This document shows, piece by piece, positions 11,017 through 17,690 of a stretch of 64,000 nucleotides of DNA. The notes under the pieces are model-generated. The model searched no databases. It saw nothing but the letters and a program-made list of their open reading frames with translations, and was not told where the DNA came from. This stretch comes from Methylacidimicrobium sp. AP8 (GTDB lineage: Bacteria; Verrucomicrobiota; Verrucomicrobiia; Methylacidiphilales; Methylacidiphilaceae): positions 1,736,001 to 1,800,000 of the forward strand of contig NZ_LR797830.1 in the NCBI RefSeq assembly GCF_903064525.1, given 5' to 3'. The position numbers and the translations under genes are program-made. How positions within the stretch are numbered: position 1 is the stretch's first letter; each line of letters starts with the position of its first letter.

Positions 11017-12426
11017 TTATGGCGAGCGGAGCTCCATGTCCTCGCAGAGGCCCGGCAGCTCCGCCTTAGGCGGTACCGTGCTCACGAAGGGATCTTCCAA
11101 GGAGTAGTAGCCGCTGTTGCCGACCTGCACATAGTCCCAGTCGATCACATACGAGATCTTGCCGGCGGCCACTCGTCGCATGAGCTGGCTGCGGGCATGG
11201 GCTCGGGTGTTCCGGGGAGCCTCCTGCTCCGGATCCCGGCTTCCGGGGCCGGAGCAGGCGAGCGCTTCGAGCGTCGGCTGGGGGATCAGGCCCGCCAACC
11301 TCCGCTTTTCGTCGAGGTTATGGTACTCGAGATCAAGGCTTTCCATCCACGGATCATCCCAGCCCACCCCCTCCCGGCTTCGAAAGAGCTCGAGCAGGTG
11401 ACGCTTCGTGATCCAGTCCACCCTGCCCAGGAGCGCCTCGGTGTCTTCGCGCAGACCCCGCAAGACCTCCTCCCACGCAAGACAAGTCCAGGCCGCGTCC
11501 CGATCCCCTTCCCTGCCCGACCGCGATACCGCCGCCAGGAAGTGCTCCAAAAGCTCCACGGCCGTCCACCTCCTGCCGTCGGAGAGCTCGATGAGCCACG
11601 GGCCGTCGGGGCAATGGCTGATCTGATGCATCGTGCGCACCGGATCGGCCAGGGCGACCTGGGGCATCCTGTCCTCCTCCAGAAGATCAAGAACGAGCGA
11701 GGTGCTGCCGACCTTCAGGGCCTGGCTGAACGGCAGCATGTTCGAGTCCCCGAGGAGGAGGTGGAATCGACGGAAGCGGCTGGGGTCCCCCAGCGGCTCG
11801 TCCCGCGCGTTGATCAGCGCCCGGTTGAACTGCACCCACTCGTAGATCTCGGTCTGGATGTAGTCGGCCCGTTGCATCACCTGGAACGGCAGAGCGCGCG
11901 TTCGGGCTCCCCGGTCGACGCCGCGCGGTACCATCACTGTGCCGACCCGACCCGCTCCGACCATCAGTCCCCGGACAGCCAGGAACGCGAGCAGGGAATC
12001 GACGTTACCCTGGGTGAGCGGCGCGTCGCGCTGGAGCAGATAGTTTTCGTGGCAGCCGAAGGTCGCACCCGTGTAGTGATCGATGTTATTCTTGATGAAG
12101 GAGGTCTCCCCAGCGATGCCCAAGTCGTTCAAGGCCCGTTGCAGCAGAATTTCCCCCGCCCGATCGGAGGCCAGCAGATCGCCGAGGAAGAGGCATTCGG
12201 CGGTGCAATACTCGATATGCCCCATGTCGAGATAGAGCCGCCCGCCGTTGAAAAGGAATCCGCCGTTGCCCGCCGGCTCGTCGTAATCCCGATCATGCAC
12301 ATCGATCAGGCCCACCTGCTTCCGGTAGAAGAGATAGTCCCGGACTCGCTCCGGCACCGGCATTCTGTCCTGGGATCGCTGCGATAGGCAGCCGTACTCG
12401 GTTTCCAGCCCCGCAATCCGACGCAT
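11017..12426 (-). CDS. pafA: Pup/UBact--protein ligase PafA
   Basis: Ligase that uses ATP to join the C-terminal glutamate of the Pup-like tag to lysines of target proteins. 469 residues of the glutamine-synthetase-like Pup ligase/deamidase fold: MRRIAGLETEYG, the acid-bearing LYLDMGHIEYCTAEC, FIKNNIDHYTGATFGCHENYL, INARDEPLGDPSRFRRFH and LLLGDSNMLPFSQALKVGS. I call it PafA rather than Dop because the long Dop loop present in its paralogue at 14.4 kb is missing and its N-terminus begins directly with the ligase core. AGGAG lies six bases before the ATG at 12426, three bases after prcA. Depletion or loss would be expected to stabilise tagged proteins; that is family knowledge. Confidence 0.93.
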   Translation of the reverse strand: MRRIAGLETEYGCLSQRSQDRMPVPERVRDYLFYRKQVGLIDVHDRDYDEPAGNGGFLFNGGRLYLDMGHIEYCTAECLFLGDLLASDRAGEILLQRALNDLGIAGETSFIKNNIDHYTGATFGCHENYLLQRDAPLTQGNVDSLLAFLAVRGLMVGAGRVGTVMVPRGVDRGARTRALPFQVMQRADYIQTEIYEWVQFNRALINARDEPLGDPSRFRRFHLLLGDSNMLPFSQALKVGSTSLVLDLLEEDRMPQVALADPVRTMHQISHCPDGPWLIELSDGRRWTAVELLEHFLAAVSRSGREGDRDAAWTCLAWEEVLRGLREDTEALLGRVDWITKRHLLELFRSREGVGWDDPWMESLDLEYHNLDEKRRLAGLIPQPTLEALACSGPGSRDPEQEAPRNTRAHARSQLMRRVAAGKISYVIDWDYVQVGNSGYYSLEDPFVSTVPPKAELPGLCEDMELRSP

Positions 12427-12429
12427 CTC

Positions 12430-13209
12430 CTACTCCTTTTGCCCTTCTTCCCATCCCAATTCCCAGGACTCGGGGACGAGAAACGCCGGGCCGCCGCCGG
12501 TGGCAGCCTCGCGGGAGAGCGCCCCGACTTCGAATCGGTCCGCGAGCTTGGGGGCGAACCAAGCACTCGGCGGTGTAAACTCTTCCCACGGAATCCGCTT
12601 CTCCCCATCCGCCTGGGCGGCCCAAGCGAGCACGGCCAGCGCGTGCCCGGCTAACTCCTTCCAGCTTTTGCCCGGGATAGGGGGAAATTTCCGGCTCTCC
12701 TCCCGCCACAACGTCCAGAGATCCTTCCGGGCCCCGAGCAGAGCGCCGCGCCGCAGCTGCTCGGAATCCACCCCGGCATAGCCGCCGTCGTATTCGATCA
12801 GCCATCCTTGATCCGCGGAGGCCGAGCTTCCCAACTCCACGAAAATGCCCCGGAACAGCAACGGCGCGGCGAAGATCTGCTCGAAGGCGTTTTTGAGCGC
12901 CCCGGCCAACCCATAGCTTACGATCCGCCGCGCGCTCACGTCGGCTCTCGATCGGGAGAAGCCCTCGACGTGCGCCGTCTCGATCGCGGTCTGGCGGATC
13001 TTTTCCAGATCGGCGGGATGGCCGATTCCCGCGAGCGCCAAATGGTCGTAGATCTCGAAGATCTTGGGAGTGGACGCCTTGCCGGCGACCAGCAGGATGC
13101 CCGGCTCCCCGCTCAGAGCGACGACGGGTGCGGCACCTCGCAGTTGATCCTCGATGTACTCGCGTCGATTCTGGACCGCTTCCAGCCAGCGATAAGGTTC
13201 CTCGATCAC
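12430..13209 (-). CDS. prcA: Proteasome subunit alpha
   Basis: Non-catalytic outer-ring subunit of the bacterial 20S proteasome, gating entry and docking the ATPase. 259 residues. The opening IEEPYRWLEAVQNRREYIEDQ corresponds to the PYxWAxxRxEYI gate segment of actinobacterial alpha subunits, and an IFEIYDHLALAGIG block follows as in KIxEIYDRIAFAGVG. The start is a GTG at 13209 preceded by GAGGGGAAGAGG; no ATG is available before the conserved N-terminus. It is separated from prcB by 188 bases, the largest gap in the operon, and followed three bases later by pafA. The C-terminal 60 residues are not similar to anything I recognise. Confidence 0.93.
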   Translation of the reverse strand: MIEEPYRWLEAVQNRREYIEDQLRGAAPVVALSGEPGILLVAGKASTPKIFEIYDHLALAGIGHPADLEKIRQTAIETAHVEGFSRSRADVSARRIVSYGLAGALKNAFEQIFAAPLLFRGIFVELGSSASADQGWLIEYDGGYAGVDSEQLRRGALLGARKDLWTLWREESRKFPPIPGKSWKELAGHALAVLAWAAQADGEKRIPWEEFTPPSAWFAPKLADRFEVGALSREAATGGGPAFLVPESWELGWEEGQKE

Positions 13210-13397: not shown

Positions 13398-14192
13398 CTA
13401 GGTCGTCGGAAGAAGACGGCCGAGCTGCTCTTCCGGAATCGATTTGACCCCCGACCGCCGGACCAATTTGACCTGCGGATAGATTCGCGTCCGCCGATCA
13501 ATGCCTCCCGTGGCGGTGTCGGATTCCGCCGCTACATCCAAAAGCTGGAGCGAGAGAGCGATCGCCTCTTCTTCCCCGCGCTCGGCCGGAGGCGATCCGC
13601 TCCACCGGTTCAGATATTGCAAAACAGCGCGCGCCGCCGGCGATCCCGAACCCGAAACGGCGAAATCGACCGCCTCGAATTGCGCTCCCAAGGCATCATA
13701 AAAGAAGATCTTCGGTCCCCCTTTGCCCAGAGGATCGACCAGGGCGAGGATCGGAACCACGACCCCGACTCCTTGGAGGGTCATCGCGAGGTTCTCCTTG
13801 AGAAGCTTGCCGACCATTCTTACCTTCGCGTCGACCGACAAGGGTTGAAGCTGGCTCCGCCGGTAGTACTCGAAGGAATGCTGAAGGACGCGCGCGATTT
13901 CGTAGGCGATCGCCGGAGCCCCGGCGATCGCCATCACCGTCGACCGGTCGATCTCGATCACCTTGTCGGCTCGATCATGAATGACCGTGTGCCCCATCGT
14001 GGCCCGCCGGTCTCCGGCAACGATCACCCCGTCCCGATAATGAAAGCTGAGGACGGTGGTCGCTTCCGGCATCGGTACCGCCGCTGCCCCCGGCGCCGTG
14101 CCTTTCCCTTCCGGGAAAAGAAGGTTCCTCGCACGGAGGACGGCGAGGAAATCCCCGGTCAGAGCCCCGGCGGAAACGCCGACGGTCTCCAC
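13398..14192 (-). CDS. prcB: Proteasome subunit beta (catalytic)
   Basis: N-terminal-nucleophile protease forming the inner rings of the 20S proteasome. 264 residues with a propeptide of about 44: cleavage before TTVLSFHYRDG would expose Thr45 as the nucleophile. The partner residues of the family are in place: Asp61 in VAGDRRAT (Asp17 of the mature chain) and Lys77 in RADKVIEI (Lys33). The conserved SGSGSPAARAVL and ESDTATGG segments near the C-terminus also match. The start is a GTG at 14192, four bases after the ubact stop, with GGAG nine bases before it. The tag and protease genes are therefore almost certainly cotranslated from one mRNA. Confidence 0.95.
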   Translation of the reverse strand: METVGVSAGALTGDFLAVLRARNLLFPEGKGTAPGAAAVPMPEATTVLSFHYRDGVIVAGDRRATMGHTVIHDRADKVIEIDRSTVMAIAGAPAIAYEIARVLQHSFEYYRRSQLQPLSVDAKVRMVGKLLKENLAMTLQGVGVVVPILALVDPLGKGGPKIFFYDALGAQFEAVDFAVSGSGSPAARAVLQYLNRWSGSPPAERGEEEAIALSLQLLDVAAESDTATGGIDRRTRIYPQVKLVRRSGVKSIPEEQLGRLLPTT

Positions 14193-14196
14193 GACC

Positions 14197-14379
14197 TTAT
14201 TCTCCGGTACGCTGTCGATAGCGCTTCGCCTGATCGGGATCGACCTTGCGCATCCGCTTGAGGATTTCTTCGGTGTTCGGCCGATCGATTCTCGGCACCC
14301 TGGGCCCCGGCCCCTCTCCTCCCGGACCGGAACCGGGACCGACCGGATGTGTCTTTTGGACTTGTTCTGGCATCAGCAT
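14197..14379 (-). CDS. ubact: UBact, Pup-like protein tag ending in Gly-Glu
   Basis: Small unstructured protein that is joined by PafA to lysines and read by the ARC ATPase. 60 residues: a Gly/Pro-rich first half, then RPNTEEILKRMRKVDPDQ and AKRYRQRTGE at the very end. This matches the UBact group of Pup homologues described in Gram-negative phyla. The last residue is already Glu, so no deamidation step is needed before ligation, unlike actinobacterial Pup ending in Gln. I chose ATG 14379, with AGGAG four bases upstream; a second ATG two codons later (14373) is equally possible. The gene lies 26 bases after dop and four bases before prcB. Confidence 0.93.
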   Translation of the reverse strand: MLMPEQVQKTHPVGPGSGPGGEGPGPRVPRIDRPNTEEILKRMRKVDPDQAKRYRQRTGE

Positions 14380-14405: not shown

Positions 14406-15956
14406 CTAACCGCCGATCGGCTCCAGGTGCAATTCCTCGATCATATCGGAAACGGCTTGCGCCCGGTCGATCACCTCGCAATAGCGCTCCAGGTCGACAC
14501 CCGGAAAGGCCGAGGACAGCTCGACCCGATAAGTCTGCCCCTTCCAGCGAAAGGCGATGTAGTCCCACTGAACGTTGACCAGGTCTTTGGCGAACTTTTG
14601 AATGCACTTGCCCCGGATATACGCGCGGGATGCCGTCGGCGGCTGCTGGATCGCCCGATAGATATCCTCCTCCCGGGAAATTCGGCTGATCTGGCCCGCG
14701 GATTCCAGCGCGTAATAGAGCCCGCGCTCCCTATCCATCAGATGGTATTCGAGATCGACACTCTGGAGCCACGGGTCATCCCAGGAGAGCTTCTGCTCCT
14801 CGCGGAAGGTCTCCAGAAGGGAGCGCTTCGCCACCCAATCGAGCCGGTCCCGCAAGGCATCGGGATCCTTCTGCAACAGTTCGATGGTCTCTTTCCAGCC
14901 CTTCCAGACCGCTCGTTTCTCCGGGTGGTCGAGATCGACGTAGCGGCCGACCCAATCCGCGTAGTCGTTCTGCAGCTCGGTCGCGGTAGTCTTCCCCGCA
15001 TGCGCGAGGCTGATCTCCCAACGGTTGGTCGGATCCCGGGAGATGCTCCGGTGCGCGTGGAGCGGGTCGAGCAGAAAAAAGCGGCGTGGCGCACGCTCGT
15101 ACTGCAGCGCCTCCAGCACCAGTGCCGTGGTCCCTACCTTCAGCCAGGTGGCGTATTCCGAAAGGTTGGAGTCACCCACGATCACGTGGAACCGCCGGTA
15201 GAGCTTGGGGTTCGCGTGGGGCTCGTCCCGCGTGTTGATGAGGGGCCGCCGGTTCATGGTGTCGATACCGACAAGCTCGGTGAAAAAGTCCGCGCGCTGG
15301 GAAATCTGGAATCCTCCGCCCATCCCCAGGTCTTCCTTCTCCCAGCCGAGCTTCCCCGCGCCGCCGAAGATCTGCCGGGTGACCAGGAAGCCCATCATCC
15401 CCTCCACGATTCGATCCCAGGGGATCATTCGCGGGATCAGGTAATTCTCGTGGCAGCCGTAGCTGTGTCCTGCGAAGTCGCTGTTGTTCTTATAAAGGCA
15501 CACCGTATGATTTCGCCGCCGGCTGGCCGCCCGGGCGCACTCCTCCAGAATCCGCTCCCCCGCCTTGTCCTGCGCCACCAGCTCCAGAAGGGTGGAGCAT
15601 TCGGGTGTGGAGTATTCGGGATGCGTATGATCGTTGTAGAAGCGCGCCCCGTTGCGTAGGACGAAGTCGCTCTTGATCTCCTCGAAGCTGTAGGGCCGCT
15701 GGCGATCCTGGGAAAAAAAGTTCGCCTCGTCCCCGTCCTGGCGCAGCTCCTTCGCCCGGAAGCCACGGGCGTCGCGATGGGGATCCTCCCGGGTGTAATC
15801 CCAGAGATTCGGGCTGCCGAGTTGCGCAGCGGCCCGGACGAGGTGAATCGACTCCTCGACCACGTCGATTTCGGCGTTTTCCCGAACCGCGATCCCGAAC
15901 TCGGTCTCCAATCCGAAATAGATCGGCCAGGCTGGAATGGGTCTCTGCTTGTCCAT
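14406..15956 (-). CDS. dop: Depupylase Dop (UBact-removing enzyme)
   Basis: Homologue of PafA that hydrolyses the bond between tag and target lysine (and deamidates Pup where the tag ends in Gln). 516 residues. Dop hallmarks: LWDYTREDPHRDARGFRA and a long insertion rich in charged residues (about 70-105, the Dop loop region), then YNDHTHPEYSTPEC with the key acid, LYKNNSDFAGHSYGCHENYL, LINTRDEPHANPK and FHVIVGDSNLSEYATWLKVGT. Start ATG 15956 (MDKQRPIPAW) has GGAGG 13 bases upstream; a TTG at 15998 would overlap the ATPase gene. Because the tag here ends in Glu, its main role is presumably depupylation and tag recycling. Confidence 0.94.
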   Translation of the reverse strand: MDKQRPIPAWPIYFGLETEFGIAVRENAEIDVVEESIHLVRAAAQLGSPNLWDYTREDPHRDARGFRAKELRQDGDEANFFSQDRQRPYSFEEIKSDFVLRNGARFYNDHTHPEYSTPECSTLLELVAQDKAGERILEECARAASRRRNHTVCLYKNNSDFAGHSYGCHENYLIPRMIPWDRIVEGMMGFLVTRQIFGGAGKLGWEKEDLGMGGGFQISQRADFFTELVGIDTMNRRPLINTRDEPHANPKLYRRFHVIVGDSNLSEYATWLKVGTTALVLEALQYERAPRRFFLLDPLHAHRSISRDPTNRWEISLAHAGKTTATELQNDYADWVGRYVDLDHPEKRAVWKGWKETIELLQKDPDALRDRLDWVAKRSLLETFREEQKLSWDDPWLQSVDLEYHLMDRERGLYYALESAGQISRISREEDIYRAIQQPPTASRAYIRGKCIQKFAKDLVNVQWDYIAFRWKGQTYRVELSSAFPGVDLERYCEVIDRAQAVSDMIEELHLEPIGG

Positions 15957-15994: not shown

Positions 15995-17650
15995 TCAAAC
16001 GACCTGACGCACCGTCGCTTCCTCCCGCCGCATCACCGGCGCCAGCCGAACCACGTTCTGGGGATCACAGTCCACCAGCTTCAACCAGTCTTCCGTGATG
16101 TCCGACGGCGGGAAGATGTCATTCTCAAGATACTCGATATCGAGCGCTGTCAACAGGTCCTCCAACCGCAAGCCGTAATCGGACGGATCGGCGATCGCCC
16201 GCTTGATCGCCAACTCCTTGGCCCGCTCGACAATCGACGCGATGATCGCTCCGCTGATCAGGTCGCCCCGATAGAGATATTCCTTTCTCCCGCTCCGGTA
16301 GGTGATCTCCAGGAACCGGTTCCGCTCGACCCGGGCGAACTGCGCCTCTAGCACCCCTTCGATCAGGATTTCGATCGCCTTTTGCCTATCGTTGCCCGCC
16401 TGCCTCAGGAGATCCGGAGAATAGGGCAGATCCGTATCCAGATAGATGCGGTAGATCTCTGCCGAGCCGGCGCGGTCGGGTCGATCCACCTTGATCTTCC
16501 GGTCGATCCGGCCGGGCCGCAGGATGGCGGGATCGATCAGGTCCGCCCGGTTGGACGCCAGGATGATCACCACCTCGCGCATCGACTCAATGCCGTCCAT
16601 CTCAGCGCAGAACATGGGAACAAGCGTGTTGAGGATGCCGTGGTAGCGGCCCGCGCGCCGGGTTCCCAGGATGGATTCCGCCTCGTCGATGAAAAGGAAC
16701 GGGAGGTACCCTTCCCGTGCCAGCTCCCGCGCCTGCTCGAAGAGCTCGCGGACCTGCCGCTCCGATTCGCCGACCCACATGTTCAGGATCTCCGGTCCCT
16801 TGACATGGAGGAAATACTCCTTCCGGTCCTCGCCGGTTTGTTCTCGGAGCCGACGCGTGAGATTGTACGCCGTGGCCTTCCCTAGGAGCGTCTTCCCGCA
16901 CCCCGGCGGTCCGTGGAGCAGAAATCCCTTGGGAACATGGTGATGGTACTTGGCGAAGAGGTCCGCATGGAGGAAAGGCAGCTCCACCGCGTCGCGGACG
17001 GCGCTGACCGCCCGTTTCTGCCCTCCGACCTTTTCCCACGGAAGCTCCGGAACCCGATCGAGCAGACGGTACTTGGTCTTCGAGGTCGCCACGACCTCGA
17101 CGGCGACCCGGGAGGAGGAGTCGACCCGAACTTCGAGCCCGGCCTTGATCCGCTCTTTAGCCAGCGGCGTGGAACGGACCACGACGAAGCTTCCGCCGAC
17201 CCCTTCATGGCCCACGCGCAGCCGGTTGTCCGGCAGCACGTCGATCACCTTCACCACAGGGCCCGATACATCGAAGCCGAGATCGCCCACGACGACATAG
17301 GCCTCGTTGAGCAGCACCCGGGTTCCAACCATGAGGGTCTCATGGGCCAACCGGGGGTCGATCAGGCAATAGAATTCGGTTCCGCCCTGGATCACGAGCG
17401 CGATCTCTTTCTTGGGCAGGGCGAGGAGGGTGCCCACCCGGTTCGCCGGGGAGGAAAGTTTCTCGACCGCGTCGTTGAGCTTTTCCAAAGCCTGGCGGGC
17501 CTGCTCGTTGGTCTCCTCGAGCTCCGCCACCCGGCGGCGGAGATAGAAGAACGCCTCCCGCGAAACCGCGTCAAAAGCGAGCCTTTGGCCGATCAAGTCG
17601 ACGATCTGAAGAGCGGAGGCCGACTCCAAGCTTTCGAAAGACATAGGCAT
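15995..17650 (-). CDS. arc: Proteasome-associated ATPase (ARC/Mpa)
   Basis: AAA+ ring that recognises the tag through its coiled coil, unfolds the substrate and feeds the proteasome. 551 residues: N-terminal coiled coil (about 30-66), two OB folds (about 70-190), Walker A GPPGCGKT (about 247-254), Walker B LFIDEAE (about 319-325) and the arginine-finger region RPGRIDRK. I start at ATG 17650, with GGAG five bases before it; an in-frame ATG at 17683 has a poor ribosome site and lies only one or two bases after the predicted transcription start. The chain ends ATVRQVV: the GQYL/HbYX tail that docks actinobacterial Mpa to the alpha ring is not there. pyrF ends about 90 bases upstream. Confidence 0.94.
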   Translation of the reverse strand: MPMSFESLESASALQIVDLIGQRLAFDAVSREAFFYLRRRVAELEETNEQARQALEKLNDAVEKLSSPANRVGTLLALPKKEIALVIQGGTEFYCLIDPRLAHETLMVGTRVLLNEAYVVVGDLGFDVSGPVVKVIDVLPDNRLRVGHEGVGGSFVVVRSTPLAKERIKAGLEVRVDSSSRVAVEVVATSKTKYRLLDRVPELPWEKVGGQKRAVSAVRDAVELPFLHADLFAKYHHHVPKGFLLHGPPGCGKTLLGKATAYNLTRRLREQTGEDRKEYFLHVKGPEILNMWVGESERQVRELFEQARELAREGYLPFLFIDEAESILGTRRAGRYHGILNTLVPMFCAEMDGIESMREVVIILASNRADLIDPAILRPGRIDRKIKVDRPDRAGSAEIYRIYLDTDLPYSPDLLRQAGNDRQKAIEILIEGVLEAQFARVERNRFLEITYRSGRKEYLYRGDLISGAIIASIVERAKELAIKRAIADPSDYGLRLEDLLTALDIEYLENDIFPPSDITEDWLKLVDCDPQNVVRLAPVMRREEATVRQVV

Positions 17651-17690
17651 GTCTGCTCCGAATCCTTTTTCCTTTCTCGCCATGCCTCAC

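Follow-up and report, generated by a model that had tools for sequence, protein, structure and literature searches.

A conserved tyrosine-free C-terminus in the proteasomal ATPases of UBact-bearing phyla suggests an alternative mode of attachment to the proteasome

A UBact-proteasome operon and its ATPase

The window, by which we mean the whole stretch of 64,000 nucleotides that was analysed, comes from the genome of Methylacidimicrobium sp. AP8, a single contig of 2.30 Mb, and carries a minus-strand operon whose genes are ordered ATPase, Dop-like, UBact, 20S beta, 20S alpha and PafA-like. With UBact beside Dop, PafA, 20S alpha, 20S beta and the ATPase, the locus is a UBact-proteasome operon, and the tag gene scores above the cut-offs of both NF033388 and PF20513. 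The features, in coordinates of the window, are as follows.

15995..17683, minus strand: AAA-type proteasomal ATPase of 562 aa, Mpa/ARC (pup_AAA) family (Pfam, NCBIfam and PDB matches, and a structural model)
15998..16033, minus strand: ATPase tail, MRREEATVRQVV, downstream of the last strand (model residues 544-549)
15998..16003, minus strand: C-terminal Val561-Val562, put forward as a docking motif, [VI]-[VIL]-COOH
14406..15956, minus strand: Dop-like deconjugase
14197..14379, minus strand: UBact, a Pup-like tag with the C-terminus RYRQRTGE (NF033388, 85.1 bits against a cut-off of 35)
13398..14192, minus strand: 20S beta subunit, with a propeptide, and with TT where processing is expected
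12430..13209, minus strand: divergent 20S alpha subunit, sharing 23% identity with Mtb PrcA
11017..12426, minus strand: PafA-like ligase

The ATPase is composed of a coiled coil (a long helix in the model, residues 39-77), two OB domains, an AAA domain and a beta-grasp-like C-terminal region, and the domains PF17758, PF16450 and PF00004 (OB-N, OB-C and AAA) all score above their Pfam cut-offs. The best NCBIfam match by far is TIGR03689, at 454.6 bits and hence under the curated cut-off of 504.75, and the top PDB matches are mycobacterial ATPase structures. Being an AAA ATPase, the protein is not an activator of the 11S (PA26/PA28) class, which is defined by a helical heptameric ring with activation loops. 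An ATPase without a core was considered for the window and rejected, as 20S alpha and beta genes are co-encoded; the original prediction had correctly noted an alpha gene nearby, and beta is there as well.

The reading frame of the ATPase is intact and its product ends in NVVRLAPVMRREEATVRQVV. The final residues are ATVRQVV, and tyrosine is absent from the last 10, just as the original prediction had stated. The terminal Gln-Val-Val therefore departs from the HbYX pattern (Hydrophobic-Tyr-X), and RQVV departs from a C-terminal GQYL. In the structural model, which is middling (pLDDT 70, pTM 0.46) and served solely to place the disordered tail relative to the strand, residues 553-562 come after the strand at 544-549 and have pLDDT below 50, on which ground they are probably flexible. 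A frameshift that hides a YL ending had been named as one observation that would undo the prediction. Past the conserved EDWLKL motif, a YL end is absent from the two other frames, and the ATPases of six genomes of the same genus terminate in QVV or QIV. Given that the alternate frames lack YL and that the six congeners share the end, we conclude that there is neither a frameshift nor an HbYX motif at this terminus.

A conserved aliphatic pair behind a variable linker

ATPase tails were gathered in several surveys. The gene was found in 15 of 30 genomes of the genus, family and order, in 9 of 387 genomes of the host phylum, and, in a UBact-guided scan of named genomes, at 46 of the best 80 of 286 loci. 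It was also present in 32 of the 34 genomes behind the other 34 UBact loci, from which G426 and G433 were dropped (partial matches without a locus). Latescibacterota contributed 47 of 64 genomes, with all 47 tails read, and Armatimonadota 134 of 251, with 95 of the 134 tails read (30 loci and 65 fetched). The C-terminal half was present at 258 loci, two of which (L171 and L206) were dropped as ORFs open at a contig end. Over the last 150 residues 218 tails were distinct; setting aside three actinobacterial ones left 215, divided by the phylum labels of the seed records into 75 from Verrucomicrobiota, 47 from Latescibacterota and 93 from Armatimonadota.

None of the 215 distinct homologues outside Actinomycetota has a penultimate tyrosine; a homologue of the clade with the motif had been named as another observation that would undo the prediction. 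The penultimate residue is Val or Ile in 204 of them (the remainder being M, A, T and one D). At the last position, V or I accounts for 200 tails, a figure that rises to 212 once L, M and F are counted too. Tyrosine occurs elsewhere in the last 10 residues of nine tails, each time upstream of the terminal pair. Residue -3, which is Gln in the ATPase of the window, is mostly G, S, N, R, A, T or Q in the clade. All 93 Armatimonadota tails have V or I at the penultimate position, and their last residue can also be L (7), M (4) or F (1). Three tails are exceptions: L165, which ends FDP and is an ORF from a MAG that diverges after DPDN, L262, which ends RVS, and L285, which ends GVH. The last two are closed Armatimonadota tails, from G720 and G750, respectively; in G750 beta was detected and alpha was not, a lone case to which we attach no weight.

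Both intact actinobacterial controls, from Tsukamurella and Nonomuraea, a small set, terminate in GQYL, which bears out what had been said of actinobacterial Mpa. The Nonomuraea record (NZ_LT559118.1), which bears proteasome genes, is listed in PLSDB as plasmid I; its size of 11.85 Mb suggests that it is the chromosome. L235 is a broken mpa fragment amid transposase genes on a Streptomyces linear plasmid (NZ_CP108391.1, 566868-585956) and was kept out of the conclusions. ATPase matches interrupted by a single in-frame stop (TAA or TGA) were seen in G631, G696, G625, G685 and G433.

The end of the ATPase is a strongly conserved, tyrosine-free motif that follows a linker variable in both length and sequence. 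Entropy among the first 137 sequences is 1.05 bits at position -1 and 1.42 at -2, as against 2.7-3.6 at -3 to -14, and across the 215 homologues V and I together account for 7.8% of residues at linker positions -5 to -14. The distance from EDWLKL to the end is 25 to 31 residues once a row of 45, whose identity as L165 was deduced from its length, is set aside. A FastTree phylogeny of the ATPase minus its tail (136 rows, 134 of them outside Actinomycetota) placed every phylum on one side of a branch. On this tree the last residue has undergone at least 18 changes among the 134 rows, all of them between V and I, and the minimum number of changes is 21 for the penultimate residue, 26 for linker length and 39 to 62 for each of positions -3 to -12. 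As an internal control, a terminal V/I pair was present in 40 of 46 ATPases from the best 80 of 286 UBact loci and was nearly absent from the other genes of the same loci (Dop, UBact, beta, alpha and PafA), with a single case among 348 closed ORFs. Thus, the C-terminal alignment across UBact phyla that had been proposed as a test brings out a conserved aliphatic pair that the earlier reading had missed, and the label of an ATPase that lacks a docking motif has to give way to that of an ATPase with a different one.

The ATPase and the core proteasome are retained together. Among 80 Armatimonadota genomes with the ATPase, alpha was detected in 78 and beta in 79; the exceptions, for which genome completeness is not stated, are G750, with no detected alpha, and G757, with neither subunit, whose ATPase retains a TVI end. 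These 80 genomes therefore offered no clear case of the natural control, an ATPase in a genome free of 20S genes. In several Armatimonadota the genes for ATPase, alpha and beta lie far apart and all are retained, which indicates that they are kept together without linkage. On one contig (G747:C1), for example, the ATPase is at 1216882, alpha at 775483 and beta at 1376688, hundreds of kilobases from one another. Three Verrucomicrobiota (G189, G041 and G280) have no 20S genes beside the ATPase, and a search for beta alone located that gene elsewhere in each. A search with PF10759 (Bpa/PafE) gave no match in this genome or in any control genome. Finally, all-against-all clustering around 92 operon loci disclosed no clear conserved extra gene; the largest clusters, as judged by eye, seem to consist chiefly of shadow frames and of housekeeping genes from the flanks.

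The 20S alpha subunit and its pocket

The alpha subunit has no Pfam match, scores 52.3 bits with TIGR03691 (cut-off 139), and, across 222 aligned positions, shares 23% identity with Mtb PrcA. Its AlphaFold2 model (pLDDT 92.1, pTM 0.90) superimposes on PrcA chains, including those of 5lzp, a Bpa-GQYL complex, with Z of about 24 and rmsd of about 2.4 over about 210 residues. In Mtb, the penultimate tyrosine of Mpa is described as bonding to Arg26 or Glu119 of alpha. Pairing of the tail carboxylate with Lys52 is described for one of the two binding modes, and the GQYL glycine is said to make backbone contacts with Asp144 and Ser146 of the next subunit; the substitutions R26A and K52A each abolish PafE-driven degradation (PMC9599533). 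We located the corresponding positions in an alignment of 103 clade sequences with three actinobacterial ones (Mtb, Rhodococcus and Nonomuraea, again few controls).

13063..13065, minus strand: alpha Lys49, equivalent to Mtb PrcA Lys52 (tail carboxylate in Mtb); Lys in 103/103
12787..12789, minus strand: alpha Asp141, equivalent to Mtb Asp144 (tail backbone in Mtb); Asp in 103/103
12856..12858, minus strand: alpha Leu118, aligned with Mtb Glu119 (a tyrosine partner); Glu in 0/103
13135..13137, minus strand: alpha Gly25, aligned with Mtb Arg26 (the second tyrosine partner); Arg in 1/73 (first 73 sequences)

The alpha pocket lysine that is cognate to HbYX-type tails is thus kept in every clade sequence, as is Gly145 (Mtb numbering; 103 of 103). 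Because only 16 of 230 Mtb PrcA residues are retained in at least 95% of the clade alphas, the retention of Lys52 and Asp144 is notable. The position of Glu119 is occupied by L (57), V (27), I (11), T (6) or M (2) among the 103 alphas, and that of Ser29, by the pocket lysine network, is Pro in all 103 alphas of UBact-bearing phyla. Loss of the tyrosine partners is, however, weak evidence, since 29 of 110 residues invariant in the three actinobacterial alphas are likewise never seen in the first 73 clade alphas. Moreover, 68 of the 103 alphas have a basic residue one column ahead of Arg26, so that a shift of one residue at the helix end could hide a tyrosine partner. Coevolution of these partners was accordingly demoted as the main argument, given the 29/110 background. 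As read from the alignments, the case stands on the tail statistics and on the retention of Lys and Asp; the loss of the tyrosine partners is no part of it.

Proposed docking of the tail and comparison with known systems

To judge from their sequences, these endings suggest a different way of plugging the ATPase into the proteasome. We think it likely that the tyrosine-free tail docks by its C-terminal carboxylate in the alpha pocket, with the aliphatic pair [VI]-[VIL] taking the place of Tyr-X. A flexible linker of about 12 residues would leave the beta-grasp domain and end in two beta-branched aliphatics and a free carboxylate, and the six C-termini of the hexamer, to go by their conservation, would insert where neighbouring alpha subunits form pockets. 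In such a pocket the carboxylate would pair with alpha Lys49, the tail backbone would contact alpha Asp141, and the aliphatic pair would fill a less polar space devoid of the polar tyrosine partners of actinobacteria; docking may then also open the gate. A linker that varies in length, an end that stays fixed and the retained alpha Lys together fit a pocket for a free C-terminus. The contact of the carboxylate with Lys66 is also described as important in the archaeal T20S and the human 20S (PMC10349882, PMC8907193). Two reports caution against easy extrapolation: in the archaeal T20S the tyrosine hydroxyl bonds to Gly19 (PMC10349882), and among peptides described for the human 20S neither Leu nor Ile substitutes for Tyr at P3 (PMC8907193). 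It is a more tentative proposal, one that we regard as conceivable but hesitate to favour, that throughout one branch of the bacterial proteasomes motor and core are coupled by a tyrosine-independent [VI]-[VIL]-COOH and a remodelled pocket, with gating by carboxylate-Lys pairing and hydrophobic fill alone.

The aliphatic pair might instead dock the ring only, the gate being opened by a beta-grasp hairpin acting on the alpha H0 helices or by a separate factor. There is precedent in the 11S activators, which are without HbYX and open the gate by activation loops (PMC10349882), and in Mtb Mpa, in which a beta-hairpin that touches H0 is important for degradation (PMC9599533); the beta-grasp-like C-terminal region is, moreover, conserved in the ATPase studied here. 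The Mtb GQYL tail itself, however, accompanies dilation of H0 (PMC9599533), and around the 92 operon loci no clear recurrent extra gene was found that could supply a separate factor. We hold this division of labour to be rather unlikely. More unlikely still is that the end is conserved for another use, namely auto-inhibition by insertion in the pore of the ATPase itself, binding of an adaptor or avoidance of a C-terminal degradation signal. Free Mpa C-termini are reported to point back into the pore (PMC8755798), and so small an aliphatic terminus might suit a wide range of partners; against this, the variable linker, fixed end and kept alpha Lys match a pocket for a free C-terminus, and the other proteins of the operon are without such an end (the 1 of 348 above). 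An artefact, in which a frameshift or wrong stop masks a normal YL end, is refuted by the recurrence of this terminus in six further congeneric genomes and across three phyla and by the absence of YL from every frame, and we give it practically no weight. Of the two options left by the original prediction, then, docking by a different tail is favoured, and obligatory coupling through another region is not, in view of the constrained V/I pair and the kept alpha Lys.

Pup-like systems in Verrucomicrobia, Nitrospirae and other groups, including Methylacidiphilum, have been known since 2008 (PMC2588565), and Dop/PafA have been described in Armatimonadetes and NC10 (PMC7947786). A literature search on UBact, pupylation and HbYX in these phyla, mostly at listing level, did not turn up a description of a tyrosine-free tail. 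The conserved tyrosine-free tail is the finding here, and the search suggests that it is undescribed in the literature covered. Searches for the HbYX motif would miss the proteasomal ATPases of the sampled UBact-bearing phyla, for which [VI][VI] is the pattern to seek. A lineage that naturally has an aliphatic pair in place of tyrosine separates the role of the tyrosine from that of the carboxylate, and if a tyrosine-independent branch does exist, tyrosine would not be required for ATPase-driven gating of the proteasome.

In its overall plan the ATPase resembles Mpa/ARC (TIGR03689; PDB 7px9 and 5kwa), with which it shares the coiled coil, tandem OB domains, AAA domain, beta-grasp-like C-terminal region and tail, as well as an operon with Dop, tag, 20S beta, 20S alpha and PafA. 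It differs in being about 39% identical to the actinobacterial controls, in scoring below the TIGR03689 cut-off, and in having a shorter tail with a [VI][VI] end where theirs is GQYL. Like the HbYX tails of PAN, Rpt subunits and PA200, its tail is probably flexible and carries a short C-terminal motif with a free carboxylate, and the cognate alpha subunit keeps the pocket Lys; unlike them, it lacks both a Tyr and, at -3, a hydrophobic residue. Cpa is another activator described as being without GQYL, and its binding determinants are said to be poorly understood (PMC8223512). A parallel is also seen in HslU-HslV, in which an AAA ring activates a threonine protease via its C-termini, the tail of H. 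influenzae HslU ending in Leu (PMC6429459). HslU belongs to a different family and uses a six-residue helical segment, and the likeness is thus an analogy only. The 11S activators dock by their C-termini. PA26 is, like our ATPase, without HbYX, and 11S activators still open the gate (PMC10349882), but, unlike our ATPase, they are non-ATPases in which the gate is opened by activation loops.
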